A DNA stretch of 64,000 bases, taken from the NCBI GenBank assembly GCA_026398535.1, contig JAPLSQ010000009.1, forward strand, positions 1 to 64,000. The letters run 5' to 3'. Below the pieces are notes generated by a model. It had not been told where the DNA came from. It made no database searches and was given only the letters and a program-made list of their open reading frames with translations. The stretch's first letter is position 1. Each line of letters opens with the position of its first letter. This DNA is from Candidatus Sumerlaeota bacterium (lineage in GTDB: Bacteria > Sumerlaeota > Sumerlaeia > Sumerlaeales > Sumerlaeaceae). Below are positions 154 through 49,359 of the stretch, piece after piece. Position numbers and translations under genes: made by a program.

Positions 154-2499
154 TTAGAGTCGAACTTTCCATCGCAGTATCAATGTCTCGCCATCCTTGA
201 AATCGCGGGTAAGAGTGTCCGAGTTCACTGCCGCGGGCGTCTCGGTCATGATATCAACCATATCACAAGGCCAGGGGAATTTGATGGTGCGCGTTCCCGC
301 ACCGTTCGCATGGATGGCGACATGAGTTTTGTTTGCGTACAAGGTGTCGTCGCGATCGTTATATATGTGCACGCCAGCATTTCGCGCCAGTTCCCGGTAA
401 ATCCGCGCGGGCAGCAGCGGGGTGATGCTGTAGATCGAACTCCACTGTCCCATGTCCTTCATGGCGAAAACAGTCTGTCCGCCGCCGGGATTCGTTCCAA
501 GGACGCGCCCGCTCTTTTCATCCACGCAGAAAAGCCCGCAGATGGCCTTGTCCGGCCCCACAACAGACTTTCCCGAATGCTCCGCTGTCCGGCTGAGAAG
601 CGGATCATCGGGATTGAGCGCCACTTGCGGTGCGATGAATTTCTGCGGATCAAGCGCCTGGATATTGAAGCCGGTCAGGCTCTTCATGCCATCAGCCGGG
701 GTCCTGTTGCCGTTGAATCGGCCGGGGGCGTAACACCACAGCAGATGCTTGTTGCCATACTTGAGTTTTTTTTCGACCAATGCGCGCTGGCGGTCGGTCA
801 TGTTATAGTTGTTCAAAAAGACAACGAATTTGTAGGAAGTCGTGTCGAGGAGTTCGAGATCATCAATCAGGATATGGTCCGCCGGCGCTCCAATCTTGAT
901 GAGCTCCCATTGGGTGTTGAGCAGGGAGTATTCAAGCAAGTCGCTGCGGAAAGTGGCATATGAACACGAAGGCTCATCCGAAACGATCAGGATTTCGCTG
1001 TTCGATCCGCGGTCATATCTTTTCGATGTTTCAGCCGCGCGGTTAAGGCGCGCCACCTCGGTCATGAGGTCCGGGTGATCATAGTAGCCGCCGTGAAGAT
1101 CGAAGTAACTTTCAAAGAATCCATTGCAGATTGAGAACCCCATGGAGCGCTCGTACATCCAACTGGTTTGCAACGGGGTTGAGGTGTAACCCAGCACATC
1201 AATGCAACGGTCGATCTCGCTCTGCGGCATGCGGGTGCGCTTGAGCACCTCCGGTGCGAGGAACGACACGACATCATTGTCGTGGTACCACAGTTTCTTG
1301 TGCAAACGGACGGAATAGGCGGGCGCGCGCTGATAATCGCCGCCACGGCCCGGATAACGATTTCCGTAACTCGCTGTCACAAAAATGAAATCCAGGTATT
1401 TGCTCTGGTTGTATCGCGCCAGCGCGTTGTGGCCATACTCCGGATCGCCGCGGAATTCATACATGTAGCCATAGAACGCGCCCACCGCCTTGCGTCCGCC
1501 CGTCGCCTCTTTTGCGGCGCGGGCAAAATAGTCAATGGTCTCAGGAATGATGTCGTTGTAAAACTGGTAAAAATCAATGACGTTCATCTTTACCGCGGGA
1601 TCGCGCAGGGCTCCATTGCCCAAGTCATACCGCTCCTGGCGCGAGGGAACCGTCACTTCATCAAAACCAATTTGGGGATTGTTCCACGCCGCCCGCAATG
1701 CGTCCGCAGTATGGTATTTCGCTCTCAGCCATTGCTGGAACGCCTTGCGCATGTGTGGACTGTAACCCGCCAATTGGTCGGAACCGCTGCTCCAGTGATA
1801 CCATTCCTCCGTGTCAAGTCCCGCAAGGAAGTAGCCGAAGATATTGCCGGCATACTTGGAGGACTGGATGTGGGCGATAAGTTTTCGAAGCGCCATGCCG
1901 ATGTCAGTCCGCCATTTCTCGGACGCGAGACTGGGGAAAGGGCGGCCTTTGGGCAGTGTGGGATTGCGGTTCGGATCCTTGTAAATCACCGACCCGTCAT
2001 CAATGATTTCCATTTCGCCGGGATTGGCGTCGAGCCACCATTTGGGCGTTCCGATATAAACACGAAGGATGACCCGGGCGCCAGGACATGCTGTCAGGAC
2101 GCGGTTCATGCGCTCGTCAAGCTGCGAGTAATCCCATGTATCCTGCGCCTTCCAGACGGGCTCGGAGTGGCCATAGTCGCATGACGCGGCGTTTGTGTTA
2201 AAGCTGAACAGGCGCGTGCCGGCATCGCAGAATTGCCGGAAGTATTTCGTTTCAGGGACATAAGTCTCAAAACATGGGGCTGTGTATGGGGTGAATCCCT
2301 TCTGTCCGCCATCCTGTATGGCAAATGTGGGGGTCTGAAACACATCCGTCACGACGACGCGCAGGTCGTCAACCACCGTCGCCGTTTCCGTCGTGGCCGG
2401 CGGCGCGGCAAAGGAGAAGCCCGGAAACGTGATGGCGCAGAGCGCCGCAACCGTGAGACGACAGCGGAAGATATGATCATTCCTGCTTTGTGATTTCAT
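154..2499 (-). CDS. Secreted GH42-like glycosidase, tandem copy A
   Basis: 781 residues. An N-terminal signal peptide ends near FSFAAPP (about residue 33). A TIM-barrel domain follows (about 70-420), then a GATase-like/trimerisation region and a C-terminal beta domain, the layout of GH42 beta-galactosidases. The likely acid/base is E232 in DTEEWYHW. At the later strand where GH42 proteins carry a nucleophilic Glu, this protein reads KLWYHDND (402-409), with no Glu. It is a close paralogue of the next three genes upstream. Its ATG lies one base after the stop of copy B, so the two are probably translated together. Secretion and a sugar-cleaving role are well supported; substrate and activity are unknown. 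Confidence 0.85.
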   Translation of the reverse strand: MKSQSRNDHIFRCRLTVAALCAITFPGFSFAAPPATTETATVVDDLRVVVTDVFQTPTFAIQDGGQKGFTPYTAPCFETYVPETKYFRQFCDAGTRLFSFNTNAASCDYGHSEPVWKAQDTWDYSQLDERMNRVLTACPGARVILRVYIGTPKWWLDANPGEMEIIDDGSVIYKDPNRNPTLPKGRPFPSLASEKWRTDIGMALRKLIAHIQSSKYAGNIFGYFLAGLDTEEWYHWSSGSDQLAGYSPHMRKAFQQWLRAKYHTADALRAAWNNPQIGFDEVTVPSRQERYDLGNGALRDPAVKMNVIDFYQFYNDIIPETIDYFARAAKEATGGRKAVGAFYGYMYEFRGDPEYGHNALARYNQSKYLDFIFVTASYGNRYPGRGGDYQRAPAYSVRLHKKLWYHDNDVVSFLAPEVLKRTRMPQSEIDRCIDVLGYTSTPLQTSWMYERSMGFSICNGFFESYFDLHGGYYDHPDLMTEVARLNRAAETSKRYDRGSNSEILIVSDEPSCSYATFRSDLLEYSLLNTQWELIKIGAPADHILIDDLELLDTTSYKFVVFLNNYNMTDRQRALVEKKLKYGNKHLLWCYAPGRFNGNRTPADGMKSLTGFNIQALDPQKFIAPQVALNPDDPLLSRTAEHSGKSVVGPDKAICGLFCVDEKSGRVLGTNPGGGQTVFAMKDMGQWSSIYSITPLLPARIYRELARNAGVHIYNDRDDTLYANKTHVAIHANGAGTRTIKFPWPCDMVDIMTETPAAVNSDTLTRDFKDGETLILRWKVRL

Positions 2500-2500
2500 G

Positions 2501-4765
2501 TCAGCGATATTCCATCCGTAGTATTCGTGTTTCCTTGTCCCTGAGACTCAGTGGTATTTCCCGCGCATCCCGCGCCACAACCGTCTCGGTGATGGCGTCG
2601 TAAACCGTGGCGGCGCGCGGGAGTTTGATGGTCCGCGTTCCTGAGCCGTCGGCGTTGACGGTCAGGTAACTGCGGCTCACATAGAGCGTGTCGTTGCTGT
2701 CGTTGTAGATATGCGCACCTGCCGACCTTGCGAGCGCGCGATAGAATGATGGCGGCAAACTGGCGGTCATCGTGTACACGCTCGTATAGTCCTTTATCTT
2801 TTTCACCGCCATGACGGTTTTGTTGGCGCCTTTCAGAACACCCAGGGGCGCCGCGTCGGCATCCTGCACAAAGAGCGGCGCGCAGGATTTTTCATCCGGT
2901 CCCACGGTCACCTTGCCCGATGATGTGATCTCATCAATAAATTGTCCTGTTTGTTTTTTCAGTTCGATGCGGGGCGCCACCAATGGGGAATCCACCGAAC
3001 CAGCGAGATTTATGCCTGTCAACGCGCTCATTTCCTCCGGATTCTTTTTGTTGCCGTTGAACAATCCCGGCGCGTAGACCCACAAAACAGTCTTTCCACC
3101 CGTCTTGATCCGCTGCTCGATTTGAGCTTTCTGATAGTCATCGACACAATAGGTGTTCAGCATGATCACAAGTTTGTAGGGTGTGGTGTCGAGCAGGGGC
3201 AGATCATTCAGGTAAACAGCATCGTAAGGGGCGCCGCACTTGATGAGCCGGTAGGGCGCATCGTACATGTTCTGGCGCAGCATGCGGCTGTGGATGGTGG
3301 GATACATCGTTGCCAGTTCGTCAGCCACGACAAGTATCTCGGCGCACGATCCGCGGTCGTGATCCACCGAGCGCTTGTACATGCCGTAAATATCGCGCAC
3401 AGTATTGAGCAGGTCGGGATGGTCAAAGTAACCTCCATGCAGATCAAACAGACTCTGGTGCACGCCGTTGCCGAGGGTAAATCCGGCGCCCCGCTGGTAA
3501 ATCCATTTCGATTCCTCTGCGTTCTCTGTGCATGCCAGCACCACTTTGCTCCGCTCCCACTCGGCATCGCCCATCCGGCGCGACACTTCGGGGAACAGAA
3601 AGGACACGTTGTCGTTGTCCTCAGCCCAAAGTTTGTTGTGCAACTTGAGTGAAGTATGGGGCGAGCGCAGGATGGAGCCGCCCGAACCAAGCTGGCGGGA
3701 GCCGTAACTGGCAGTCACGACAACGAAATCAACATTGTCGCTCTTCAGCAGTTTCTCCACGGCAAGATGCCCCGACTCGGGATCAGCGGCAAACTCAAAC
3801 ATGTACGCGTAAAACGCGCCCACAACCTTTGTGCGATTGGTGGCATCCTTGACGACACGCGCCAGATAATCAATCACTTCAGGGATCAAATCATTGTAGC
3901 ACTGATAGAAGTCGATGACGGGCATTTCCGTGGCCGGATCGCGGAATGTTCTCTCGTCTTGGCCAGCGAAACGCGCGGCCTTGGAAGGTATCTCAACCTT
4001 CTCAAAGTCAATCCATGGATTGTTCCAGCTTTTGCGAAGGTTGTCCGTCGTCCAGTATTTCCGCTTCAGCCACTCCCGGAAATTCTGCCTCATGTGGGGA
4101 CTGTAATCACCGACCTGGTCGCGGTTGAAGGTGATGTGGTACCATTCCTCGGTGTTCATACCGAGAATCTGGTATCCAAAAATGTGGTTTGCGTACGACG
4201 CCGACTGGATATGGCTGATCATGTTGCGCAGCGCGGCAGCCATGTCCTCGCGCCATTTGAGCGACGCGACCGACGCGAATGTGCGCGATTTGAGCGCGGG
4301 CCACAATCGCTGGGGATTGTTCAGGTTCACCGAGCCGTCGCTGTATACCATGAGCTCCACGGGATTCTCAGCCCGCCACCAGTCAGGCTCCGCAACATGG
4401 ATGCGAGGCATGATCAGTGCATCAGGATCGGCAGACAGGATCATGCCGATGCACGCGTCAAACTCCGAGTAATCCCAGACGTCATGGCCAACCCATGTGG
4501 GCGTCGAATGCTCCCATGGCTCCATCGCGCAGTTCGTGGCGAATCCATAAAGCCGGCATCCGGCCTCCTTAAACTGCCTGAAATACTTTTCTCCTGGCAC
4601 ATAAGTCTCAAACGCGGGCAGCACAAAAGGTTTGCCGTCGACATAGAATTCCGGAAGCCCGTTGCGCGACTCCACACTGGTGACCGGTCCAAGCACTGGC
4701 TGAGCGGATAAAGTGATGGCTGAAAAGATGAATAACAAAGCCAACGAAATCAGCACCTTCATCAT
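2501..4765 (-). CDS. Secreted GH42-like glycosidase, tandem copy B
   Basis: 754 residues from the chosen start. The open frame extends about 100 codons further upstream, but that part overlaps copy C and is not protein-like. The tandem ATG pair at 4765/4762 has an AGGGA site about eight bases upstream and opens a clean signal peptide (MMKVLISLALLFIFSAITLS). The barrel carries NTEEWYH (E206/E207) and the later strand reads KLWAEDND, as in its paralogues. Alignment with copies A and C is obvious through motifs such as FETYVPGEKYFRQF and RDPATEMPVIDFYQCYND. Probably a periplasmic or extracellular sugar hydrolase. There are 79 bases between it and copy C. Confidence 0.84.
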   Translation of the reverse strand: MMKVLISLALLFIFSAITLSAQPVLGPVTSVESRNGLPEFYVDGKPFVLPAFETYVPGEKYFRQFKEAGCRLYGFATNCAMEPWEHSTPTWVGHDVWDYSEFDACIGMILSADPDALIMPRIHVAEPDWWRAENPVELMVYSDGSVNLNNPQRLWPALKSRTFASVASLKWREDMAAALRNMISHIQSASYANHIFGYQILGMNTEEWYHITFNRDQVGDYSPHMRQNFREWLKRKYWTTDNLRKSWNNPWIDFEKVEIPSKAARFAGQDERTFRDPATEMPVIDFYQCYNDLIPEVIDYLARVVKDATNRTKVVGAFYAYMFEFAADPESGHLAVEKLLKSDNVDFVVVTASYGSRQLGSGGSILRSPHTSLKLHNKLWAEDNDNVSFLFPEVSRRMGDAEWERSKVVLACTENAEESKWIYQRGAGFTLGNGVHQSLFDLHGGYFDHPDLLNTVRDIYGMYKRSVDHDRGSCAEILVVADELATMYPTIHSRMLRQNMYDAPYRLIKCGAPYDAVYLNDLPLLDTTPYKLVIMLNTYCVDDYQKAQIEQRIKTGGKTVLWVYAPGLFNGNKKNPEEMSALTGINLAGSVDSPLVAPRIELKKQTGQFIDEITSSGKVTVGPDEKSCAPLFVQDADAAPLGVLKGANKTVMAVKKIKDYTSVYTMTASLPPSFYRALARSAGAHIYNDSNDTLYVSRSYLTVNADGSGTRTIKLPRAATVYDAITETVVARDAREIPLSLRDKETRILRMEYR

Positions 4766-4844
4766 GTTGACGTTCCCTTGATTGCTATAACTGAGTTCTC
4801 TGGCCTCCGGCCGGCCTGTCCGACAAAAAAGCACTGTTCCATCA

Positions 4845-7190
4845 TCATTTGTCCCCATAACGATAAACCTGCGTTTCGCCGTGCATAAGTGAAATCTCGA
4901 AACTGTCGACATTCTGATGAAGGGGGATGTTGCGCAGGGCATCCCAGACGCTTGCGCGGCGGGGCAGCCGGACAGTACGGCTCCCCGGTCCGTCGCCATT
5001 GATCGTGATGAAACTCTTGTTGGCGTATAGCGTGTCATTCCGGTCGTTAAACAGATGAACACCCGCCGATTTCGCGATGGCGCGCACGACTTCGGGCGGC
5101 ATGATCTGAGTCATCGAATAGACCGAAGTCCAGCCGTTGAATTTCCGCATGGCCATGACCGGCGCCGATGTTTCCGCCAGCACGCCGAGTGTCATCGTCA
5201 TGGGGTCTTCGACTTTCACAAGATCACAAATTTTGCCTTCCAAGCCGAAAGCAGCCGCAGGCGGTTTCTGCCCTTGCGATTCTACAAAATCTCTGCCCGC
5301 CTGAGTCAGGACAGTTTTTGGGCACACATATCCGTCACGGCGCGGCCCGACGGTGTGGATGCCCGTAAGCTCCATCATCATTGACTGTGATTCTTTGTAC
5401 CCGTTGAACAAACCGGGAGCATAACACCAGACGAGCACACGGTTGTTGCCCTTCAGCCTGCCATTCACGAGCGTCCGCGCCGCATCATCCATGTTGAACG
5501 TGTTAAGGAAGACAACGACCTTGTATTGGTCGGGATTAACGAGCTTCAGGTCAGCCAGCAGGACACTGTCATAGGGCGCGCCGCACTTGATGAAACCGAT
5601 CTGGTGGTCGGCCAGCGCCTCGTTGATCCTATTGGCATGCGCCTCGCCCGCCAACTCCGCCTGAAAGGAGTTATAAGAGCACGACACGCCGTCTGCAACG
5701 ACAAGGATTTCTGCGATGGTAGAACGGTCGTATTCGGGCGACCGGGTCAGCGCCGCGGAATTCACGGCGAGTGAATTCAACAGCCGTGGATCATCGAAAT
5801 AGCCGCCGTGAAGGTCAAAATAACTCTCGTAAATTCCCTCGCACATCACAAAACCCGCCGAACGCTCAAACAGCCAGATGGATTCCTGTGCCGTCGTGGT
5901 CACGGCAAGAACTTTCATCATGTTTTCGATTTCCGCAGGCTTCGCATGATGCTTGGCCATCACCTTGGGGAAAAGGAATGACGACAGATCGTTGTCGTGG
6001 AACCATAGTTTTCCATGCAGCGTTCCTGACAGGAAGGGACGGCGATAGCACTCGGCCCCGCTGCCGAGCTGGCGCTGATTATAGCTGGGCGGCGCGCAGA
6101 TGAAATCTATGTTCCGGCTGTCGAGCAGCCCCGCCTGCGGATAATGCCCGAATTCCGTGTTGCCGTGGAACTCAAACAGGTAATCATAAAAAGCGCCGAT
6201 CACCTTATTGCGCCCGGTCGTCTCCTTGGCCGCGCCGGCAAAAAAGTCGATCGTGCCGGCAACGATGTCATTATAAAAGACATAATAATCAATGACATTC
6301 ATTTCACGAGCCGGATCGCGGAAGGTCGCCTTCCTGTTGCCAAACCGTTCGATTTTCGCGGGAATTTCAGCCGTGGCAAGTGTTGCCGTGGTGCTGTTCC
6401 ACGCCTTGCGCAGCGCTTCATCCGTCGCATATTTCCTGCGCAGCCATTCCCGGAACGCGGCCTTGATGTGCGGGCTGTAATCCGCGAGCTGCTCCTGGTT
6501 GACGCTCCAGTGATACCACTCCTCCGTCGCCAACCCAGCGATTTCAAATCCCATGATATGCCCGCCGTAGGACGCATCGAGCATGTGTCTGATTGTTTTC
6601 TTCAAGGCGCCTGCCATTGCCTCGCGATATTTCGCCGAAGCCAGCGACGGATAGGTCCGCTTGGGCGGCGTCACTGCCGTGTTGTATGGCTCCCTGTAGA
6701 TTTTGCCGCCATGATCGAGAACTTGCATCTCGTCCGGATTATTGTCACGCCACCAATCTGGAGCGTCGATGTAGATGCGCGGCAGAAGGAGCGCGTCGGG
6801 ATTGTCCGCAAGCGCGTTTTGCGCTCTTTCATCCACTTCGGTGAAATCCCATTTATCTTCTGCCAGCCAGACCGGCTTGCTGTGGCCATATACGCACCGT
6901 CCGCAGTTCATGGCGAAATTGAACACCTTGCAGCCCATCCTGCCCATCTGCCCATAATAGTATCGTGTGGGAACATAGGTGGCGAAAAGCGGCGCGGCGA
7001 ATGGGTTGCCGTCGACAAAAAATGTCGGGCGCCCGTTGAACATGCGCACTTCCGACTGCGGCCCGGGCACATTTGTTGTGTCGTCGTCGCCTGCCGCCCC
7101 CATGACAGCAGGACACAAAAACAACAATATTGCATACACCGCGGAGAAGCGCCGCAGCCAATGATCTGATATTTTCAGAAGGCTCTCCAA
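4845..7190 (-). CDS. Secreted GH42-like glycosidase, tandem copy C
   Basis: 781 residues with a hydrophobic export segment (AVYAILLFLCPAVMGAA). The GH42-like barrel contains ATEEWYHW and the later strand KLWFHDND, matching the other three copies. The start is uncertain: the longest frame begins with TTG at 7190, which overlaps the end of the fusion gene by 16 bases and has no clear ribosome binding site. A GTG 17 codons further in would still leave an export segment. No ATG lies near. The sequence ends ETQVYRYGDK without the C-terminal tag seen on the neighbouring fusion. Confidence 0.8.
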   Translation of the reverse strand: MESLLKISDHWLRRFSAVYAILLFLCPAVMGAAGDDDTTNVPGPQSEVRMFNGRPTFFVDGNPFAAPLFATYVPTRYYYGQMGRMGCKVFNFAMNCGRCVYGHSKPVWLAEDKWDFTEVDERAQNALADNPDALLLPRIYIDAPDWWRDNNPDEMQVLDHGGKIYREPYNTAVTPPKRTYPSLASAKYREAMAGALKKTIRHMLDASYGGHIMGFEIAGLATEEWYHWSVNQEQLADYSPHIKAAFREWLRRKYATDEALRKAWNSTTATLATAEIPAKIERFGNRKATFRDPAREMNVIDYYVFYNDIVAGTIDFFAGAAKETTGRNKVIGAFYDYLFEFHGNTEFGHYPQAGLLDSRNIDFICAPPSYNQRQLGSGAECYRRPFLSGTLHGKLWFHDNDLSSFLFPKVMAKHHAKPAEIENMMKVLAVTTTAQESIWLFERSAGFVMCEGIYESYFDLHGGYFDDPRLLNSLAVNSAALTRSPEYDRSTIAEILVVADGVSCSYNSFQAELAGEAHANRINEALADHQIGFIKCGAPYDSVLLADLKLVNPDQYKVVVFLNTFNMDDAARTLVNGRLKGNNRVLVWCYAPGLFNGYKESQSMMMELTGIHTVGPRRDGYVCPKTVLTQAGRDFVESQGQKPPAAAFGLEGKICDLVKVEDPMTMTLGVLAETSAPVMAMRKFNGWTSVYSMTQIMPPEVVRAIAKSAGVHLFNDRNDTLYANKSFITINGDGPGSRTVRLPRRASVWDALRNIPLHQNVDSFEISLMHGETQVYRYGDK

Positions 7191-10100
7191 TTGTTGACAG
7201 TTGACGGGTCGGGATTGTCGAGACGGAAGATGATCGTTTCGCCATTGCCCATAGAGCGCTCATACGCCGTCGTTGACCCGCTCAGCTTTTGGCTGGCGAT
7301 CATGTCATAGACGGAGGATGCCTTCGGGAGCTTCAGCGTCCGCGTTCCGTCGCCATCGGCGTGTACACAGGCAAACGATTTGTTCGCGTAAAATGTGTCG
7401 TCGCGCTCGTTATAAATGTGGACGCCCGCGTAACGCGCGAGCTCGCGGTAGATGGCCGCCGGCATGTCGGGCGTGACCGTCCAGATGGACTTCCATGTTC
7501 CCAAGTCCTTAATCGCCATGCTCGTGTAGTTCGTGCCCGGATACGAGCCAAGGATCGTTCCGCCCGCATCGGCCGCCCAAATCCACTTGGCGATGTTGCC
7601 CGACGGCCCGAACTGCGTTTTGCCGGTGTTATAGAGAATCTGACCGAGCGGATGATACTGTGGTTTGATCTGAACCTGTGTGCCCGCCATCGATTCAAGT
7701 GCGGAAAACTGAAGCGTCATGCCGCACGCGCTCTGCATGTTTGCCGTGCTTGTGCTCCGCTTGTTGAAATACCCGGGCGCATACGCCCATACAAGCATGC
7801 GCCCCCCGCCTTTGAATGCGTCAATCAACAACCTCTGCTGGTCGTCAAGATTGTAACAGTTCAGAAAAACCGCCATTTTATATTGCGCAGGATTCACCCG
7901 CCCCAGATCATTCACCAGCACATGATCCGCAGGCGCGCCCATCTTGATGAGGGCAATCTGCGGATTGTACAGCGCCGTGGTCACAAGCTGGCTGTTGAGG
8001 GGCGCATAATTGCACGATACCTCATCGGACACGACAAGAATTTCACTGTTGGACGACCGGTCATACAAGCGCGTGTTGTCGAACATGTTATTGAGGGTGG
8101 CCACCTCGGCCATCAGATCGGAATTGGCATAATAGCCCGTGTGCAGGTCGAAGAAATCCTCGAAAATGCCATTGCACAGCGTGAAGCCCGCGCCGCGCCG
8201 TAACATCATACGATTCTTGTCGATCGTGTCGGTATAGCCAAGGCGCTTGCACTCGTAGGCGATTTGTTCGGGCGTAAGACCCAGTTTCTGCAGGATGCCT
8301 GGCGTCAGAATCGTGGCGATGTCGTTGTCATGATACCACAGCTTGCCGTGCAGTTGTACCGACATCGCGGGCGCGCGCTGGTAGTCGCCGCCGGTGGCCA
8401 TGTCGCGGCTGCCATAGGAAGCCGTGACATACACAAAATCCAGATTGGGCGACGCCAGGTAGCGCTCCAGCGCATTGTGGCCAAACTCAGGATTGCCCAT
8501 GAACTCGTACATGTAGGCATAAAACGCGCCGACAGGCACACTGCCGCCGGTCTTGCGTTTGATGACGCCTGCGAAATAGTCCTGTGTCTCGGGGATGATT
8601 TCGTTGTAAAAAATATACCAGTCGATAACATTCATCGCCGTCGCCGGATCGCGGAAAGTCCGCGAACCCATGCCCGTCCGGCGCTCGTTGCGGGTAGGAG
8701 TCGCCGCTGTTTCGAAAGTCACCGATGAATTGCCCCAAGCCGCGCGCAAAGCGGCAACGTCATTGTTGTACTTCGTCCGGAGCCATGCGCGGAAGGCGTT
8801 CTGCGTTGGAGTGCTGTAACCGGCAAGCTCATCGCGCCCGCTGCTCCAGTGGTACCATTCATCCGTGGCAAGCCCCGCGAGCTTGTAGCCCCCGATATTT
8901 TTCGTGTAACCTTTCGAGTTCACATAGTCGAGAAAATGCTCGAGGCCGTAAGTCATGTCTTGACGCCATTTTGCCGAGGCAAGGCTGGGGAATGGACCGT
9001 TGCGGGGCAGTATCCCGCCACCCGAGTAGTTCGTCGAACCATTGTCGAGCACTTCCATCTCCGCCGGGTTTGCCGACAGCCACCAGTCGGGCGTTCCAAT
9101 GTAGATGCGCGGCATGATGAGCGCGTTGGGATCCTGGCTGAGCACAGCCGAGAAGAATTGATCAAGCTGGGAATAATCCCACTTGTCGGGATTTGTTCCC
9201 GTCCATGTGGGCAGTGAACGCGTGTAGTCACACCGCGCCTCGTTTGCCGGAAAATCATGAAATTTCGTTCCCGCGCGGGCAAAATCGCGCTGGTATTCCC
9301 AATGCGGCCAGTAGACGCTAAAGCCGGGTATCGTCATCCACAGCCCGTCGGCCTGCAAGGTGGGCACGCCCATGAGCCGCTCCACCTTGACGAGCGTGCC
9401 GGTGGTGACAGGTCTTTTCGTATCCTGATCATAGCCGATGTTCGGTTCATTGTCGCGCACACACGGCGACGCCTGCGCCACCCGGAAACTGCGCGCCGCA
9501 TCAACAAGCTGGGGATCAAGCGTGATGTTGCCATTGCCGGCTGGCTTTCCGGTCATTGCCGGCCAGTCGCAATTGTCGTTGTAGGATGGCACATTTCCGT
9601 AACGCGAAGGCATGTCGTTATAAGAAAACAGGCAATGGTCAAATGCCGCGCGCTCATTGCCCCAACCCGGGCTCCAATGCGATGGCGCCGCCGCCGGATT
9701 CACAATGAATGTGCATTTGGAGAAAACCGTGTCGCCGTGAAAATAATTGGCCGCGGGCTTGAGCATAAGCGCGTTGTCCGCCGTGGCGGGAGTCAGTCTG
9801 AAACCGCAGTGATCGAATGCCGGCCCGGCTGGCGCGTAAATATGGATATCGCCGCCGCCGCAGGCGCAGGCCCTCGATCGTGCAAGTTCAAATACGCAAT
9901 CTTTGAACACGGGCACATTACAGCCCGGTCCGATCATGACGAACGCGTCGCCCCAATTGGGCGCCGACAGATTGTTGCAGACGATATGCAGACCCTCGAA
10001 CCGGAATTCCTGAGTGCGGGTGGTCACATTTGTGATGAAAAAACCGCACGCTCCCCCGCCCCACACATGCGTTGTGCCCGTGTAATCAATCGTTGGAGCC

Positions 10101-10462
10101 GTGCCGCCCAGCGCATAAACCCGCAATCCGCCTGCGCCTGCCGCGGCAAAACCGTCGCAGTTGATCGACGCGTAGGTCTGTGTCGGATCAAGCGCCTTGT
10201 CCTGAACAAGGCTGTAGGTGGAAGAGTCCTCAAATAGGGCAACCGAACTGCCTGCGATCAAATTATGACTGTAACCTTGGTAACCGCCCCATGCCAGACA
10301 GTCATCAATGTAAATCGGTGAACTGGCATTGAATTCATAAGGACTGGTGGTCAGTTCTTGGTAACCCTGCGGGTAAGACTTCGAAATATGAACAACCGCC
10401 GCCTGCGCACTGAGCACGTGCACAGCGAACAACACAGCAATGATGTATTTGATAAATCGCAT
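7175..10462 (-). CDS. Secreted fusion: beta-helix domain + GH42-like glycosidase, C-terminal tag
   Basis: 1095 residues. The ATG at 10462 is preceded by AAGAAGG and opens a signal peptide (MRFIKYIIAVLFAVHVLSAQA). Residues of roughly 25-350 match the two stand-alone right-handed beta-helix proteins at 15130-17652 (shared GCNVPVFKDC, GNITLDPQLVD). The rest is a fourth GH42-like copy with ATDEWYHW and KLWYHDND. After the point where copies A-C stop (GETIIFRL), this protein continues with DNPDPSTVNNWRAF, which resembles the C-termini of the beta-helix and CBM-repeat proteins. This is a fusion of polysaccharide-binding or -cleaving helix and glycosidase modules. Family placement is firm; substrate is unknown. 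Confidence 0.87.
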   Translation of the reverse strand: MRFIKYIIAVLFAVHVLSAQAAVVHISKSYPQGYQELTTSPYEFNASSPIYIDDCLAWGGYQGYSHNLIAGSSVALFEDSSTYSLVQDKALDPTQTYASINCDGFAAAGAGGLRVYALGGTAPTIDYTGTTHVWGGGACGFFITNVTTRTQEFRFEGLHIVCNNLSAPNWGDAFVMIGPGCNVPVFKDCVFELARSRACACGGGDIHIYAPAGPAFDHCGFRLTPATADNALMLKPAANYFHGDTVFSKCTFIVNPAAAPSHWSPGWGNERAAFDHCLFSYNDMPSRYGNVPSYNDNCDWPAMTGKPAGNGNITLDPQLVDAARSFRVAQASPCVRDNEPNIGYDQDTKRPVTTGTLVKVERLMGVPTLQADGLWMTIPGFSVYWPHWEYQRDFARAGTKFHDFPANEARCDYTRSLPTWTGTNPDKWDYSQLDQFFSAVLSQDPNALIMPRIYIGTPDWWLSANPAEMEVLDNGSTNYSGGGILPRNGPFPSLASAKWRQDMTYGLEHFLDYVNSKGYTKNIGGYKLAGLATDEWYHWSSGRDELAGYSTPTQNAFRAWLRTKYNNDVAALRAAWGNSSVTFETAATPTRNERRTGMGSRTFRDPATAMNVIDWYIFYNEIIPETQDYFAGVIKRKTGGSVPVGAFYAYMYEFMGNPEFGHNALERYLASPNLDFVYVTASYGSRDMATGGDYQRAPAMSVQLHGKLWYHDNDIATILTPGILQKLGLTPEQIAYECKRLGYTDTIDKNRMMLRRGAGFTLCNGIFEDFFDLHTGYYANSDLMAEVATLNNMFDNTRLYDRSSNSEILVVSDEVSCNYAPLNSQLVTTALYNPQIALIKMGAPADHVLVNDLGRVNPAQYKMAVFLNCYNLDDQQRLLIDAFKGGGRMLVWAYAPGYFNKRSTSTANMQSACGMTLQFSALESMAGTQVQIKPQYHPLGQILYNTGKTQFGPSGNIAKWIWAADAGGTILGSYPGTNYTSMAIKDLGTWKSIWTVTPDMPAAIYRELARYAGVHIYNERDDTFYANKSFACVHADGDGTRTLKLPKASSVYDMIASQKLSGSTTAYERSMGNGETIIFRLDNPDPSTVNNWRAF

Positions 10463-10587: not shown

Positions 10588-12084
10588 TCAAATCGCGGCC
10601 CGCGCCAACTTCCGCTCCGCCAGCAACCGGCGAACCTCACACATCTTTCTCTCCGTCAGCGGATAAGTGAGCGTCAGGATGAATGCCAGCCCCAACAGGA
10701 CTGCGGGAACAAAGGCATACATATAGCGCAAATTGGTGACCACATCGGGCGTCGGCTCCACTTTGGGCATATAACCTGACCACGCGATGGCATAACCGCT
10801 CAGCACGGTCACAAGCGAAATGCCAACCTTGATCACGATCGTGTTGTACATCGCCCCAAACATGCCTTCGCGCCGAAGACCGCTCTTCATTTCATCCACA
10901 TCGCACACGTCGGCAATCATCGAAAAACCGAGGATCCAAACGGACGTCAAACCCGGATTCAGAATCAGCTTCACAAACAACAGAGGGTGAAGAATCAAGG
11001 GTGTCTCAAGGAAGGGAAGTTTCAGGCTGTAGTAGGGCAGGTTGGGATTGTAAAAGTAGAGTGTCAGCAGGAACGAGACCAGCGCCAGCAACTCGCCCAG
11101 CAGCAGGGTTGTCTTCTTGCCGATGCGCGTGGCGACGACCGTCAGAACAACCGTCATGATAAGACCGATAATCCCATATATGAAATTGCAATCGCCGAAA
11201 AGCTGCGCCCCCAGCTTGTCATCCCCCCTGGCGGTGTAATACGTCAAAACATAAATCTCGAGCGGATTAACCAGAAAACAGGCAACGATGACCAGCATGA
11301 CCGTGCCGATAATAATCACATAAGGGCCATTGGTCATCGTGTACTTGAGCGCCGGCCACAAGCCGATCTTGTCCTGTTTCCACGCGCTCACGCGTTCCTT
11401 GCAAAATATGGCGGTGGACAGAATGGCCAGCATCATGACGCCACCCGCGATGGCTGTCACCCAGCGGATGCCATCCACCGTGTTGCCGCCAAATAGCGGG
11501 GATTTTGACCACAGCAGGAAATAGGGAAGGAATAGGCCGCCGATCGAACCGAAGAAGGAACGGTAGGCCATGACGCGCGTTCGCTCGTTATAGTCGCCAC
11601 TCAGTTCAAAACCCAGCGCGGCATGAGGGATTAGATAAACCGTGTAGGCAAGGAAGAACAGACTGGAAATCAGGATGAAATAGACGAAAATCCACGTCGG
11701 GCTCCACGCCTTAGGCGGGCACCACGTCAGCCAATAAAGAATGGTGACTAAAATGCCGCCGATGAAAATATAAGGACGGCGGCGGCCCCAGCGGGTCCGT
11801 GTGTTGTCGGAGATGTTGCCCATGATGGGATCAAGGATGGCGTCGAGCAGGCGGGGAATCGCTATGGCCCAGCCAACCAAGGGGGCGGGAAGCCCCAGAC
11901 CCATGTTGTAAACCGGCAGGGCAAACATGCCGATCGTGGTGGTCATGACCGCGTCCGAGGCGCCGCCCGCGGCCCATGCCGCCTTTTCATAGGGTGGCAC
12001 CTTGCCGCGAACGTCGCTGTCAATCACTGGCGGTTGCGCCGCCGCGGATGCTCCGGAACCCGGCGTGTCTTCTGAAACCGGCAT
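10588..12084 (-). CDS. GPH-family (MelB-like) sugar:cation symporter
   Basis: 498 residues, about twelve hydrophobic segments. Features of the glycoside-pentoside-hexuronide family are visible: the DPIMGNISDNTRTRWGRRRP region after the second helix and NERTRVMAYRSFF in the cytoplasmic part of the first half. This inner-membrane protein would import mono- or oligosaccharides released by the secreted glycosidases. GGAG lies eight bases before the ATG. It sits 34 bases after the stop of the GHL6-like gene and 125 bases before the fusion gene, probably in the same operon. An N-terminal extension of about 28 residues precedes the first helix. Confidence 0.88.
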   Translation of the reverse strand: MPVSEDTPGSGASAAAQPPVIDSDVRGKVPPYEKAAWAAGGASDAVMTTTIGMFALPVYNMGLGLPAPLVGWAIAIPRLLDAILDPIMGNISDNTRTRWGRRRPYIFIGGILVTILYWLTWCPPKAWSPTWIFVYFILISSLFFLAYTVYLIPHAALGFELSGDYNERTRVMAYRSFFGSIGGLFLPYFLLWSKSPLFGGNTVDGIRWVTAIAGGVMMLAILSTAIFCKERVSAWKQDKIGLWPALKYTMTNGPYVIIIGTVMLVIVACFLVNPLEIYVLTYYTARGDDKLGAQLFGDCNFIYGIIGLIMTVVLTVVATRIGKKTTLLLGELLALVSFLLTLYFYNPNLPYYSLKLPFLETPLILHPLLFVKLILNPGLTSVWILGFSMIADVCDVDEMKSGLRREGMFGAMYNTIVIKVGISLVTVLSGYAIAWSGYMPKVEPTPDVVTNLRYMYAFVPAVLLGLAFILTLTYPLTERKMCEVRRLLAERKLARAAI

Positions 12085-12118
12085 TACTATGCTCCATTCA
12101 TTCGATTGAATCTTCTGT

Positions 12119-14269
12119 TTACGGCGTGATCACAATGGCTTCATGTATCTGTTCACAGACGAGACGGATGCGACTGCCTTCCACGCTGAGTTGCGTTGTC
12201 GGGTGATGCGCGGCGGCTGAGGCAAAGGGCATCTTCATGTCGAGAGATGCCCTGTAGAGCATCGGCTCCTCCATCCTGATCGACGGCCTGACCGGCTTGT
12301 CAAGGCTCGGTAACGAGGCCGCCTGCCTGATGGGATTGAAGCTTAAAAGATGAAAGATCACCCTGCCGTCGGTCTTGCGGTTAATCATCACTTCAACATT
12401 GAGCGGAGCCTGAACAACCGCCACGGGCGTCGGCGGACCCGACAGCACGATGTTCCTGATAATTTGCCGGTGCTCGGGCAACTCGTACTGATTCGCGTAC
12501 GACGCGTCGCAACCGTGTGGCAGATACACACACACACCCTTGCCATACCGGTTGACCACCAGCGCATCCATCTCCCTCGTGTAAGGCGGATGGATATTGT
12601 GCGAAAAGAAGTGACCGGGGAAATAACGTTTCATGAATGAATCATGAAGATCCCCAAAACCTTTCGCGGTTGTGAACCGCAGGCGATGCGCCACACCCAT
12701 GTTGAGGATGTAATGGCGCGGATCGATGTCCCTGCCGTAAGGTTCGGGCAGGTTCCGCAGGTAATGCGTGTCGCAATCCATCGTTGCGGCATAATCCGCC
12801 CCGAAAACTTCCGCCAACTGAAAGTTGCTCAGCTTGTCGCCGAACTCCGAGTAAAGGCTTGTGTCAAACGTTGCGATGAGAAATCCTCCCTCACGCACGT
12901 ATTCCCTGAAGAGCGCGGCCTCGTCGGCGCTCATCGCGGCAACATTCGGCAGGAAAACTACGGGATATGAGCGCAAAATGTCCGCGTTGAGCGTCTCATC
13001 GAAGATGAACCCCACACAGAAATGGCTTTCAACAAGCGCTTTGTAAGCGCCCATCACAGGAAGAAGAAACTTTTCCTGTTGCTGGCGGCCATAATAGTCG
13101 CGGTTCTTGCATGAGTAAAAGATACCGACGTGCTTGACCGGTTCACCGCCGAAAAGATCCCTTTTCTCGCTCAGCTCAGCGATCACGCCGGTTAACCTGT
13201 CATAAGCCACCTCATCCAGCCGCCCGTCATGAAATGGCTGGTCAATGATCAGGTTGCTCACCCCGCCCGACAGGGCGGTCAAAAGCTCCCAGCGCAACTG
13301 GCTGGCAGGTTTGACCGTGAAGTCTGTGACCCGGTTCATGCGCCACGACGCCAGTTCGGCCGGTTTTCCAGGCGTAAGGCCCGCCACAAAGCGTGTCTCC
13401 ATGCCGGGATACATGTCGCCAAGCATGGGCGTGTAAGTTTCGCCCGTGCTCAGCGTGCTGTAAAGCGAGTGCCTGACGGGCTTCTGCCCCGCTCTCCAGT
13501 CAAAATTGGGCGATGCATGATAATTCATGACGACAGGCAGGCCGGGGCGCAGTTCATGCACCGTGTCACGCAACAATTGGGCAAACCGCTCGACACTGCG
13601 GTAACGGAACTCGAGAAATTGCCGCCATGTTTCATCCCATGTCGCCGTCGTTGGCAATTCCTTACCGGTTTCCCGGCGGAACAGGTCGCGACAATTCGCG
13701 CAATAACACGACAGCCCGCCAAAATCCATGTTGAACATGTCGAGATGAAATCCGCTCACACCGTAATTATCCGCGATTTCACGGATCATCGCGCGGGCGT
13801 ATTCAGCGTAACCGCTGTTGTGGCAGACGTACTTCCACTTGCCCGTGTCGGTGGTGATGGTGTCGGTCATGGGTTTGCCATCGGGGTCCAGCATCCGCCA
13901 GTCTTCGTGATCCTCCGCGGCGTGGTTGTCCCATATCACGGAATAATACGCCATGACGGGCAGGCCTGCGCGCGCGGCTTCGTCCACAATCTCCTGGATC
14001 AGGTCGCGATCGCCGATGCACAGATGTTTGTGGCCTACGCGCGTGTTGTAGTAAGCGTTACCGTAACAATCCTTGGCGAAAAAATACAGCGCGTCGGCGC
14101 CGCAGTCCACGACCTTCGACACAATGTCCGCCGGGTTGATGTTTGAGAGAATGCTATCGTGCCATTCGGGCGTGTGGAGATCGAGGTGAATCTTGCACTG
14201 GGAATGCAGATACCAGTCGGGCTGGGGGGCTTTCGGGCAACGGGCGCCTCCCTTGTCATTTTGCGTCAT
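12119..14269 (-). CDS. GHL6-like putative cytoplasmic glycoside hydrolase (copy 1)
   Basis: 716 residues from the ATG at 14269. The longer frame overlaps the pseudopilin gene, so the shorter start is preferred. No signal peptide is visible, which suggests a cytoplasmic enzyme. The N-terminal half is a TIM barrel resembling hypothetical glycosyl hydrolase family GHL6, with FFAKDCYGNAYYNTRVGHKH, then GFHLDMFNMDFGG followed by a Cys cluster (CYCANC). The second half resembles the trimerisation/GATase-like domain of GH42 proteins (SYPVVFLPNVAAMSADEA). The Asp in HLDM is a plausible catalytic residue. It probably acts on imported oligosaccharides. A paralogue lies at 37398-39533. Confidence 0.8.
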   Translation of the reverse strand: MTQNDKGGARCPKAPQPDWYLHSQCKIHLDLHTPEWHDSILSNINPADIVSKVVDCGADALYFFAKDCYGNAYYNTRVGHKHLCIGDRDLIQEIVDEAARAGLPVMAYYSVIWDNHAAEDHEDWRMLDPDGKPMTDTITTDTGKWKYVCHNSGYAEYARAMIREIADNYGVSGFHLDMFNMDFGGLSCYCANCRDLFRRETGKELPTTATWDETWRQFLEFRYRSVERFAQLLRDTVHELRPGLPVVMNYHASPNFDWRAGQKPVRHSLYSTLSTGETYTPMLGDMYPGMETRFVAGLTPGKPAELASWRMNRVTDFTVKPASQLRWELLTALSGGVSNLIIDQPFHDGRLDEVAYDRLTGVIAELSEKRDLFGGEPVKHVGIFYSCKNRDYYGRQQQEKFLLPVMGAYKALVESHFCVGFIFDETLNADILRSYPVVFLPNVAAMSADEAALFREYVREGGFLIATFDTSLYSEFGDKLSNFQLAEVFGADYAATMDCDTHYLRNLPEPYGRDIDPRHYILNMGVAHRLRFTTAKGFGDLHDSFMKRYFPGHFFSHNIHPPYTREMDALVVNRYGKGVCVYLPHGCDASYANQYELPEHRQIIRNIVLSGPPTPVAVVQAPLNVEVMINRKTDGRVIFHLLSFNPIRQAASLPSLDKPVRPSIRMEEPMLYRASLDMKMPFASAAAHHPTTQLSVEGSRIRLVCEQIHEAIVITP

Positions 14270-14297
14270 GATGAGTAATCCCGGGATTCTTGGTGGG

Positions 14298-15017
14298 TTA
14301 GTTGAGTCTGTAAATCGGGCCAAGGCTGTTGGTGCCGTTTGTCGGGTCGTACTCGGGACCCGAAGCGCCATAGGGTGTGCCATCGATAAAATAACGCGTG
14401 GCGTTGGGATTGTACAACATGTATTGGAGCGTATCGTAGACCATCTTTGGTCCGGTGCTGGCCAGGATAAATTCCGTGAAACTCGCCGGGCTGCCGGGGC
14501 CGTTCAGCCGGATCATCGGGCTTTTACCCAGCAGGCTGAGTATCTGGGCGTTGGCCGGCCAGGCTGTCAGGTCGTTGACCGCTCCAGTCAGCCCGGCATA
14601 ATTGTAGCTCAGATTCAGGTACTGCGGATGTGCTCTCATAAGGAAGGGGTCGTCAGGAAACGAGGAGATATAGGAAATGGGCGTTGTCAGATAAATGCAG
14701 GCGTCTCCCCAGCCCACAGGGGATTTGATTCTGAGAATGTTGTTGTAAACCGAGCCGTCATATCCAGTGGTTTTGGCCCGGGGAAGCTTGTTGTTGTCCA
14801 CCTTGTAGGCGTGGAGCGCGGTTGAGATTGACCGCATGTCGGCTTTGACGCGCGATACCTTGGCGCGCGTCTGGGCTTCCAGAAAATTCGGCACGGCGAT
14901 GGCCGCAAGGATGGCTATGATGGCCACCACAATCAGAAGCTCGATGAGGGTGAATGCGGTAGCGAACGTTCTCACGAAACGTTGAGGGAAAAACAACTTG
15001 AAAATCTTAGTGACCAT
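14298..15017 (-). CDS. GspG-like type II pseudopilin (copy 1)
   Basis: 239 residues with an N-terminal prepilin segment: a basic leader, then FTLIELLIVVAIIAILAAIA and VPNFLEAQTRAKVSR. Cleavage would follow Ala rather than the usual Gly (ATA before FTLIEL). The C-terminus carries YDPTNGTNSLGPIYR, nearly the same as the second pseudopilin at 34840. AGAGG lies about ten bases before the ATG. It follows a secreted beta-helix gene after a 112-base gap with a hairpin. No other type II secretion gene is in the window, so it may be a minor or substrate-dedicated pseudopilin, or a fibre subunit. This last point is inference. Confidence 0.85.
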   Translation of the reverse strand: MVTKIFKLFFPQRFVRTFATAFTLIELLIVVAIIAILAAIAVPNFLEAQTRAKVSRVKADMRSISTALHAYKVDNNKLPRAKTTGYDGSVYNNILRIKSPVGWGDACIYLTTPISYISSFPDDPFLMRAHPQYLNLSYNYAGLTGAVNDLTAWPANAQILSLLGKSPMIRLNGPGSPASFTEFILASTGPKMVYDTLQYMLYNPNATRYFIDGTPYGASGPEYDPTNGTNSLGPIYRLN

Positions 15018-15129: not shown

Positions 15130-16239
15130 CTATTCAAGCATGGCCCAATCCGTCACCGCGGACGATGGCGGGGTGGTCCAGATGTCATAGCCGATGTTGT
15201 TGGCCGGAACGCCAAGGGCGTCAACACACGGCGAGGTTTTCTGCACCAGGAAACTGTTGGCCGGATCGACCAGCAGAGGATCCTGGGTGATGTTGCCGGC
15301 GCCCGACGGCTTGCCGCTCATGGCCGGCCAGTCGCAGTTGTTCGTGTAGAACTGCACGCCGCCATAGCGCGACGGGGTGTCCATGTAGTAGAACAGGCAC
15401 TTGTCAAATGCGACCTTCTCGTTTCCCCATCCCGCGCTCCAGTGCGACGGCGTGGCGGTGGGGTTGATGATGAAAGTGCAGTGCGAGAACACAGTGTTAC
15501 CGAGCCAGTAGTTGGCCGAGGGCTTCAGAATCACCGCGATGTCGCTGGCAGCGGGTGTCAGCCAGAAGGCGCAATGATCAAAGGTGTTGCCCGTCGGGGC
15601 ATGGATGTTGATGTCGCCGCCGCCGGCCCCGCAACCCATGCTTTTCTCAAGCTGAAAGATGCAATCCTTGAACTCGGGCACATTGCATCCCGGTCCCAGC
15701 ATCACAAAAGCGTCGCCCCAGTTGACGCCGCCTGTGTTGGTGCAGATAATGTTAAGTCCTTCCATTTTGAACGAGAGCGGTTTGTCTGCGACATTCGTGA
15801 AAAAGAATCCGCAGGCGCCGCCGCCCCACATGTGCGTCGTTCCCGTGTAATCGATGCCGGGCGTTTGACCCGCCAGCGCATAAACACGCAGACCGCCCGC
15901 GCCAGCCGCGCCAAATCCATCGCAGTTGATCGAGGCATAAGTCTGAGTCGGATCAAGCGCCTTGTCAGCCACCAAGTTGTAGGTCGTGCTGTCCTCGATG
16001 ATGACCTGGCTCATGCCGTCGACGAGGTTGGTGGTATAACCCGCATAACCGCCCCATGCGAGAGCGTCATCGATATAGATGGGTGAACTGGCCTGGAATT
16101 CAAATGATCCTGGCGTGATTTCCGAGTAGCCCATGGGAAAGCTTTTCGAGATGTGCACCACAACAGCGTTGGACGGGGCCGCGCCAAAACACAATGCCGC
16201 TGCCAGCGCGATTGGAATGGTTTTGATGAACCTTTTCAT
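15130..16239 (-). CDS. Secreted right-handed beta-helix protein with C-terminal tag (copy 1)
   Basis: 369 residues with a signal peptide (MKRFIKTIPIALAAALCFGA) and AGGAGA eight bases before the ATG. The body has the repeating short strands of a right-handed parallel beta-helix, with FKDCIFQLE, FDHCAFWLTP, FSHCTFIINP and FDKCLFYYMD at regular spacing, and ends in LVDPANSFLVQKTSPCVDA, common in pectate-lyase-like fold proteins. It may bind or cleave polysaccharide; no catalytic residues can be assigned. The last residues, SSAVTDWAMLE, match the tag on three other secreted proteins here. It is the first gene after the operator-promoter at 16405-16432. Confidence 0.84.
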   Translation of the reverse strand: MKRFIKTIPIALAAALCFGAAPSNAVVVHISKSFPMGYSEITPGSFEFQASSPIYIDDALAWGGYAGYTTNLVDGMSQVIIEDSTTYNLVADKALDPTQTYASINCDGFGAAGAGGLRVYALAGQTPGIDYTGTTHMWGGGACGFFFTNVADKPLSFKMEGLNIICTNTGGVNWGDAFVMLGPGCNVPEFKDCIFQLEKSMGCGAGGGDINIHAPTGNTFDHCAFWLTPAASDIAVILKPSANYWLGNTVFSHCTFIINPTATPSHWSAGWGNEKVAFDKCLFYYMDTPSRYGGVQFYTNNCDWPAMSGKPSGAGNITQDPLLVDPANSFLVQKTSPCVDALGVPANNIGYDIWTTPPSSAVTDWAMLE

Positions 16240-16548: not shown

Positions 16549-17652
16549 TTAGAACAACATCCAATCGGCGACCGATGAAGACGGCGTCGTCCAGATGTCA
16601 TAGCCAATGTTGTTGGCCGGAACACCGCCCGCGTCCACACACAACGAGGAACTCTGAACCATGAAACTCGTGGCCGGATCAACCAACTTCGGGTCAACCG
16701 TGATATTGCCCGTGCCCGACGGCTTGCCGGTCATGTCAGGCCAGTCGCAATTGTTCGTGTAGAACTGCACGCCAAGATAACGCGAGGGCGTGTCCATGTA
16801 ATAGAACAGGCACTTGTCGAAAGCAACCTTCTCATTTCCCCATCCGACACTCCAGTGCGAAGGCACGGCGGTGGGGTTTACGATGAAAGTGCAGTGCGAG
16901 AACACGGTGTCGCCAAGCCAGTAATTCGCGCTCGGTTTCATAACCAAGGGGATGTCATTGTCATAGGGCGTCAACCGGAATGCGCAATGATCGAATGTGT
17001 TGCCGCTTGGGGCATGAATATTAATGTCGCCGCCGCCAACCGCAAGCGCCCGGTTTATGGTCAGATCGAAGATGCAATCCTTGAAAACGGGCACATTACA
17101 GCCCGGACCAAGCACGACAAAGCCGTCACCCCAGTTGGGCGCATCGCTGGCATTACACACGACGCGGATTCCCTCGATGGAGAACTTCAGAGGCTTGTCG
17201 TTGACGTTCGTGAAAAAGAACCCGGAAGCGCCGCCCGACCACATCTGTGTCGTGCTGGTAAAATCGATTGTCGGGGTTTGGCCGGGAAGCGCGTAGACGC
17301 GCAGACCGCCCGCGGTGAGCTGGGCAAAACCGTCGCAGAAAATTGACGAGTAAACTTTGGTCGGGTCAAGCGCCGCGTCTTCCACGAGCACGTAGGTCGA
17401 GTTGTCCTCGAAAATCGCCACGCTCTGATCGTCGATCAGGTTCGTGACATAGCCCGCATAGCCGCCCCAGGAAAGAGCATCAACAATGTAAATGGGCGAA
17501 CTGGCAATGAATTCAAACGGGCTTGTCGTCAGTTCACTGTAACCCTGGGGATAGCTTTTGGAAATATGGATGATCGAGGCGGCCGCAGGCATGGCGCCGA
17601 AGCAAATGAGAGCGGAAACCCCGATAGCAATGGACTTAACAAATCTTTTCAT
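16549..17652 (-). CDS. Secreted right-handed beta-helix protein with C-terminal tag (copy 2)
   Basis: 367 residues, a clear paralogue of the gene at 15130 and of the N-terminal domain of the fusion at 7175. The signal peptide is MKRFVKSIAIGVSALICFGA; AGGGAGA lies eight bases before the ATG. Helix rungs are visible as FKDCIFDLT, FDHCAFRLTP, FSHCTFIVNP and FDKCLFYYMD. The C-terminus is SSSVADWMLF, fitting the shared V-x-x-W tag. It has its own operator-controlled promoter at 17806-17833 and lies 309 bases from the next gene, so it may be a single-gene unit. Likely function is carbohydrate binding or cleavage outside the cell; no active site can be assigned. Confidence 0.84.
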   Translation of the reverse strand: MKRFVKSIAIGVSALICFGAMPAAASIIHISKSYPQGYSELTTSPFEFIASSPIYIVDALSWGGYAGYVTNLIDDQSVAIFEDNSTYVLVEDAALDPTKVYSSIFCDGFAQLTAGGLRVYALPGQTPTIDFTSTTQMWSGGASGFFFTNVNDKPLKFSIEGIRVVCNASDAPNWGDGFVVLGPGCNVPVFKDCIFDLTINRALAVGGGDINIHAPSGNTFDHCAFRLTPYDNDIPLVMKPSANYWLGDTVFSHCTFIVNPTAVPSHWSVGWGNEKVAFDKCLFYYMDTPSRYLGVQFYTNNCDWPDMTGKPSGTGNITVDPKLVDPATSFMVQSSSLCVDAGGVPANNIGYDIWTTPSSSVADWMLF

Positions 17653-29087: not shown

Positions 29088-29092
29088 AATAA

Positions 29093-29106
29093 AGTAAGCG
29101 TTTACC
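29093..29106 (-). promoter_or_regulatory. LacI-type operator at the start of the catabolic operon
   Basis: AGTAAGCGTTTACC contains the full 12-base palindrome core GTAAGCGTTTAC. It lies directly before the GatZ-PfkB start codon and just downstream of a LacI gene. A TTGACA (minus strand, 29130-29135) is about 23 bases upstream, too far to place the operator in its spacer, so repression here may work by blocking elongation or through another -35. Confidence 0.68.
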
Positions 29107-29172
29107 TTTTCGGTCTCGCAGGGAAACTTTGTCAATAATGATTTGTGTCTTCGACCAGAAAAAACCGGACGA

Positions 29173-39533: not shown

Positions 39534-39658
39534 CGTGACAATTTCTTCCTTTATCGATTGTTTTCGCGGATCAGGTGATTCATCGCAGTGCTCACCTTGA
39601 TTCAGGTGAATCGGCCGTCGCCGACAACTTTTTCCTGACACGCGTGAGGGACATGTAA

Positions 39659-49154: not shown

Positions 49155-49359
49155 AATGAAATGACTCCTTCTATGGAATGGCACTAACCCTGAAACAAGC
49201 GCATAAAAAGCTGCTCATACTAAATAATACTCGAGAGCCGCTGCGCGAGCGGGTGAGCTTTGAAATTGAACGTCACAAAGTTAACCCGACTTTCACAACT
49301 GGGGGTAATGGGCAATGGTAACCCCAGTGTTTACAGTATGAATTTTCAAAAAGTCTGCA

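Follow-up and report, generated by a model that had tools for sequence, protein, structure and literature searches.

Tandem GH42-like proteins with an aspartate in register with the GH42 nucleophile glutamate belong to a clade found in several bacterial phyla

Four tandem genes of the window (the whole stretch of 64,000 nucleotides that was analysed) encode distant relatives of the GH42 beta-galactosidases in which the residue aligned with the nucleophile glutamate of these enzymes is an aspartate, Asp407 in the numbering of the first protein, P0001. The same aspartate is found in relatives from several bacterial phyla, so a random defect is unlikely. From their sequences, the four proteins are best explained as secreted glycoside hydrolases, distant kin of beta-galactosidases. 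We give about an even chance (roughly 0.5) to the reading that they represent an uncharacterised subfamily of active GH42-like (clan GH-A-like) enzymes in which Asp407 would serve as nucleophile and Glu232 as acid/base.

The four genes and their products

154..2499, minus strand: P0001, DND-type GH42-like protein of 781 aa with a Sec-like signal; DND at 1273-1281, E232 at 1804-1806; AF2 pLDDT 93.7
2501..4765, minus strand: P0002, DND-type protein of about 754 aa from the ATG at 4765; DND at 3611-3619, Glu at 4145-4147
4845..7190, minus strand: P0003, DND-type protein of 781 aa with a non-ATG start (TTG); DND at 5988-5996, Glu at 6519-6521
7175..10462 (ORF open to 10483), minus strand: P0004, DND-type protein with an extra N-terminal domain; DND at 8321-8329, Glu at 8858-8860

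The sequence-only reading had reported a K-L-W-x-x-D-N-D motif in all four tandem proteins, and each of the four ORFs does contain it, in the forms KLWYHDND, KLWAEDND, KLWFHDND and KLWYHDND from P0001 to P0004, the catalytic part of the last spanning about 7175-9406. The motif T-(E/D)-E-W is likewise present in all four, and the Glu codons listed above are those of EWYH. The copies are only 39-48% identical to one another, with pairwise dN/dS of about 0.14-0.37 and saturated dS, which indicates that they are under purifying selection. Thus the DND motif is not a residue of recent duplication, and these values, together with an Asp407 that is kept in 14/14 sequences of its clade, bear out the earlier suggestion that conservation across divergent copies reflects selection. 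A recent local duplication of the four genes was rejected, since in the tree the copies branch off at different places within the clade, P0001 close to L009 and L063 and P0003 close to the verrucomicrobial group (some internal supports are low). Signal-peptide-like stretches occur at the N-termini, where those of the window copies look Sec-type. Twin-arginine-like (RR) signal peptides were seen in the DND relatives L009, L017, L101, L011 and L012.

Distribution of the residues at 407 and 409

Relatives were collected by a scan of genome contigs and by whole-genome searches, and 78 sequences were aligned in P0001 numbering. They belong to a large family present in metagenome-assembled genomes (MAGs) whose labels include Planctomycetota, Verrucomicrobia, Victivallales/Lentisphaeria, Bacillota and Clostridia. 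Residue 407 is Asp in 14 of the 78, namely the four window copies and one sequence from each of ten other genomes, and all 14 fall into a single clade with a support of 1.0, whose members span phyla at 38-55% identity to P0001. Outside this clade the residue is Glu in 60/64 sequences, Gln in three (L083, L111, L121) and Leu in one (L027). Such a distribution is far beyond chance, and the change from Glu to Asp looks like a single clade-defining step. L155, a strong relative recovered later, has E407 and is thus of the non-DND type; it also has P375, G469 and W472, as is usual outside the clade.

Asp409, the second Asp of the motif, is invariant (78/78), also in the four sequences whose residue 407 is not an acid, so that only the first Asp is specific to the clade. 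The proposal that D-N-D as a whole stands in for the nucleophile Glu therefore holds for Asp407, which is in the GH42 nucleophile register, while D409 has no part in the change. The loss of one catalytic acid in some relatives suggests that the family may hold non-hydrolytic or transferase-like members. Some relatives carried a flag for an internal stop (one TGA); for L115, whose ORF is open and whose matched stretch apparently reaches the terminal stop, the flag was treated as trivial.

The DND type is rare. In the sampled class of G063, a motif check found it in at least three of 286 genomes (G063, G198 and G221), and a family member at E<=1e-60 was found in at least 23 of the 286, these counts being lower bounds because scoring was confined to the top few candidates of each genome and part of the hits were read.

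Predicted fold and register of Asp407

An AF2 model of P0001 built on a 65-sequence alignment (pLDDT 93.7, pTM 0.92) contains strands at 76-79, 97-103, 142-150, 220-227, 338-342, 371-375, 403-408 and 462-467 that fit the eight strands of a barrel, the strand numbers being our reading of the AF2 secondary structure. In this model D407 lies at the C-terminal end of barrel strand 7 (403-408). The best Foldseek matches in the PDB are GH42 beta-galactosidases over the full length of P0001 (3TTS, E 1.6e-27, TM 0.61/0.69, 15% identity), and the profile alignment to GH42 also extends to the C-terminus; the predicted architecture is that of GH42, a TIM barrel followed by a Rossmann-like trimerisation-type domain and a beta-sandwich.

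When the 65-sequence profile (A4) was aligned with eight GH42 sequences from related genomes (probability 99.65, E 4e-25), D407 came to stand opposite the GH42 nucleophile E333 (L140 numbering) in P-F-M-L-M-E; residue 409 is also Asp in A4. A profile of the four window proteins (A2) gave a far weaker comparison with GH42 (E 1e-6), without the register of D407 with the nucleophile; it is the 65-sequence profile that supports this register. No Glu from another part of the chain was found to take the place of the nucleophile, the result that the sequence-only reading had named as refuting. This column of the alignment holds Asp, and the Glu that directly precedes DND in P0002 (AEDND) is absent from the other three copies. 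Two other GH42-like proteins of the window, at 32463-34760 and 46902-49184 (54% identical mutually), keep the nucleophile Glu and have I-E rather than N-E at the acid/base; with Glu at this position they are a useful internal control.

Each of the 13 DND sequences that extend over the site has Glu232 of T-(E/D)-E-W, as do 57/64 sequences outside the clade, the others having Gln (four: L041, L096, L113 and L122), Met (two) or Asn (one). The N-E motif of GH42 is missing almost everywhere in the family, with T-(E/D)-E-W in its place. HMMER puts Glu232 one residue off the GH42 acid/base, while hhalign puts the GH42 N-E about four residues before Glu232 with a 12-residue insertion, and trying several settings of hhalign gave no firm register. 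The earlier statement that the first catalytic Glu is kept holds for its conservation and only tentatively for its equivalence to the GH42 acid/base; Glu232 is the best acid/base candidate, and sequence alignments set it off by one to four residues from the acid/base Glu of GH42.

The change from Glu to Asp is accompanied by about 20 other clade-specific residues, some of them near the C-terminal rim of the barrel. N103, L228, Y234, H235, V374, T375, R391, F413, H469 and Y472 are fixed or nearly so in the DND clade and rare outside it, where Pro occupies 375 in 56 sequences, Gly is common at 469 and Trp at 472. The active site of such barrels lies at the C-terminal ends of the strands, and several of these positions flank those ends. 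These coupled changes argue for a reshaped active site and not a neutral swap, even though some of them would be expected from a long stem branch by itself.

Comparison with known families

PF02449 (Glyco_hydro_42) is the only Pfam family above threshold in all four proteins, at 23-37 bits. The match covers approximately profile positions 14-240 of 376, that is, the N-terminal two-thirds, and stops short of the nucleophile region, so that Pfam is silent on the nucleophile. NCBIfam gave no match for the four proteins, and single-sequence searches of the PDB gave weak matches only. The DND proteins and GH42 (for example 3TTS, 1KWG, 4UZS) are alike in the full-length three-domain fold, in the register of the nucleophile strand and in the PF02449 match above cut-off; however, the DND proteins are only 12-15% identical to the GH42 structures, have Asp instead of Glu and lack N-E. 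Judged as GH42 members, they agree in architecture but depart in sequence similarity, catalytic residues included, and in the nucleophile Glu, and the suggestion of the sequence-only reading that they may form a new family is supported in that they fall outside characterised GH42. As for clan GH-A, the barrel and an acid on strand 7 are present in the AF2 model and the profile alignment, and a strand-4 acid is plausible with its register one to four residues off.

Another comparison is with uncharacterised GH42-like paralogues of PVC-type and other bacteria (G067, G068, G070, G027, G053) with an E-x-D motif, which belong to the same family by full-length alignment and share D409 and mostly E232, but have Glu407, mostly P375, and commonly G469 and W472. 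The DND proteins are thus probably a clade within an uncharacterised GH42-like family, probably of clan GH-A, and, to judge from the predicted fold by which they resemble GH42, they probably work alike. Among their weak profile matches is 6PTM (7e-5), which we take to be a GH167 structure. The GH167 exo-carrageenases are a GH42-like family of clan GH-A, with GH42 domains at less than 20% identity and a family number of their own (PMC6923384), and their catalytic residues are Glu/Glu, E295 and E472 in BovGH167 (PMC6923384). Since the DND proteins have no close sequence match to GH167 and an Asp where GH167 has its nucleophile Glu, we do not place them in that family; its numbering does indicate that CAZy gives an own number to GH42-like proteins at such divergence. 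Nor do they belong with GH14 (beta-amylase), for which PF01373 has an E of 0.094, below cut-off, and the PDB profile matches are weaker than those of GH42.

Gene neighbourhood and putative substrate

9397..10402, minus strand: N-terminal domain of P0004, spanning about 330 aa and sharing 65-67% identity with both stand-alone proteins upstream
10588..12084, minus strand: MFS_2/GPH-type sugar:cation symporter, directly upstream of the DND genes and in the same orientation
12119..14383, minus strand: GHL6 (PF14871) protein, the greater part of which is similar to GH151 alpha-L-fucosidase 6TVK (E 9e-13)
15130..16239, minus strand: stand-alone homologue of the P0004 N-terminal domain
16549..17652, minus strand: second stand-alone homologue of the P0004 N-terminal domain
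37398..39641, minus strand: second GHL6/GH151-like protein, 58% identical to the one at 12119-14383

Along the minus strand the order is two proteins of about 367 aa, a pilin-like protein, GHL6, the MFS_2/GPH symporter and then the DND genes, and the gaps between them are mostly short or replaced by overlaps. The 65-67% identity of the N-terminal domain of P0004 to the stand-alone proteins ties the enzymes to this locus. That domain had no Pfam or PDB match and an AF2 pLDDT of only 36; the domain and its stand-alone homologues show repeated C-x-F motifs and a beta-helix-like look.

In five of nine other loci, as well as in the window, a GHL6 gene is adjacent to a DND gene or one gene away from it. 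The GHL6 genes of those loci are 57-76% identical mutually and 30-34% identical to that of the window. The GHL6 neighbour, and not the DND proteins, is homologous to the GH151 alpha-L-fucosidase 6TVK. GH151 has a layout of barrel, Rossmann domain and beta-sandwich, with Asp154 on strand 4 as nucleophile (PMC10154630), and this strand-4 Asp is unrelated to Asp407 on strand 7 of the DND proteins. A third, Pfam-negative family of about 600 aa adjoins the DND gene in L137 (12140-13966), is one gene off in L133 (12859-14901) and is fused to the C-terminus of the DND protein in L136 (C-terminal part of 10861-14919).

The window also codes for LacI regulators, a fucose/sulfoquinovose-isomerase-like protein and an acylating aldehyde dehydrogenase. 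Given what the locus encodes, the substrate could reasonably be guessed to be a glycan with fucose-type or other deoxy- or modified sugars. In the ORF at 26784-29186, a GatZ/KbaZ-like aldolase subunit is fused to a tagatose-kinase-like PfkB domain.

Possible mechanism and alternatives

The mechanism we prefer supposes that one clade of a GH42-like family swapped its strand-7 nucleophile Glu for Asp. Asp407 would attack the anomeric carbon (or, less likely, activate a water), presumably with retention of configuration, Glu232 would act as general acid/base and the invariant Asp409 would support the -1 subsite, while V374-T375, H469, Y472, Y234-H235 and N103 could adapt the site to the shorter side chain and to another substrate. 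Together with their GHL6 partner, the DND enzymes would process a glycan containing fucose-type or other deoxy- or modified sugars, as suggested by the GPH symporter, the GH151-like gene, the LacI regulators and the sugar isomerase and kinase. The different mechanism and the unusual bond considered in the sequence-only reading are possibilities only; Asp can itself act as a nucleophile, and Asp nucleophiles are normal in other glycoside hydrolase clans. Retaining glycosidases whose nucleophile Glu is mutated to Asp classically become orders of magnitude less active, so an Asp nucleophile would need compensating geometry, and the position of Glu232 outside the hhalign register of the GH42 acid/base, along with the absence of N-E, counts against our preferred mechanism. 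A claim that we hold tentatively, leaning slightly against it, is that of a clan GH-A-fold subfamily with Asp as its strand-7 nucleophile, or turned inverting by that change, which occurs in several phyla and is paired with GH151-like enzymes on some glycan.

A change of the whole clade to inverting chemistry, with Asp407 leaving room for a water and acting as general base and Glu232 as general acid, seems unlikely to us. The side chain of Asp is one carbon shorter than that of Glu, which would widen the gap between the carboxylates, the roughly 20 coupled changes include the new His235 and His469, and the PDB profile matches do include the GH14 beta-amylases, inverting enzymes with a similar barrel, below the GH42 matches; yet the loss of one carbon would account for about 1 A, and the carboxylate gap of inverting enzymes usually exceeds that of retaining ones by more. 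Moreover, GH42 and GH164, both retaining families, make up most of the nearest structural relatives that were found. We also regard as unlikely a family-wide role of Asp409 as the essential catalytic carboxylate, residue 407 (E, D or Q) tuning substrate binding. Because D409 is more conserved than residue 407, occurring in 78/78 sequences including the four with Gln or Leu at 407 and in A4, the latter may not be the key acid, and residues i and i+2 of a strand point the same way. However, it is 407 and not 409 that the profile alignment sets on the GH42 nucleophile, and 407 is acidic in 74/78.

That the DND proteins might be non-hydrolytic, serving in glycan binding or sensing, as transglycosylases or as degraded paralogues, is quite unlikely in our view. 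Relatives without an acid at 407 or with Gln, Met or Asn at 232 show that such loss is tolerated in the wider family, and four tandem copies leave room for subfunctionalisation, but a pseudoenzyme would not need both D407 and E232, which the clade keeps across phyla (14/14 and 13/13). Finally, the novelty could lie in the residue only, an ordinary divergence in which Asp serves as nucleophile in a standard retaining mechanism that acts on a common substrate of the beta-galactoside type, as the GH42-like fold and strand positions and a conservative substitution that arose once would allow; we consider this very unlikely, given that the nucleophiles of GH-A enzymes are normally Glu and that the changes around the active site which go with this one point beyond a neutral swap.

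In teaching, the enzymes of clan GH-A are presented as retaining hydrolases with a Glu/Glu pair, and in the open-access literature, which leaves most subscription journals outside, we found no report of a strand-7 Asp nucleophile among them. The deep monophyletic Asp clade provides a natural test of whether the nucleophile of a retaining glycosidase can be exchanged and of how such an exchange is compensated, with the E-N-D sister sequences as comparison. The uncharacterised GH42-like family, highly duplicated in some MAGs of Victivallales, Verrucomicrobia and Lentisphaeria, may attack glycans beyond the current CAZy families. In three such genomes, G067, G068 and G070, the expanded E-x-D family accounts for 18, 16 and 12 matched stretches, respectively, some of which are pieces of one gene.
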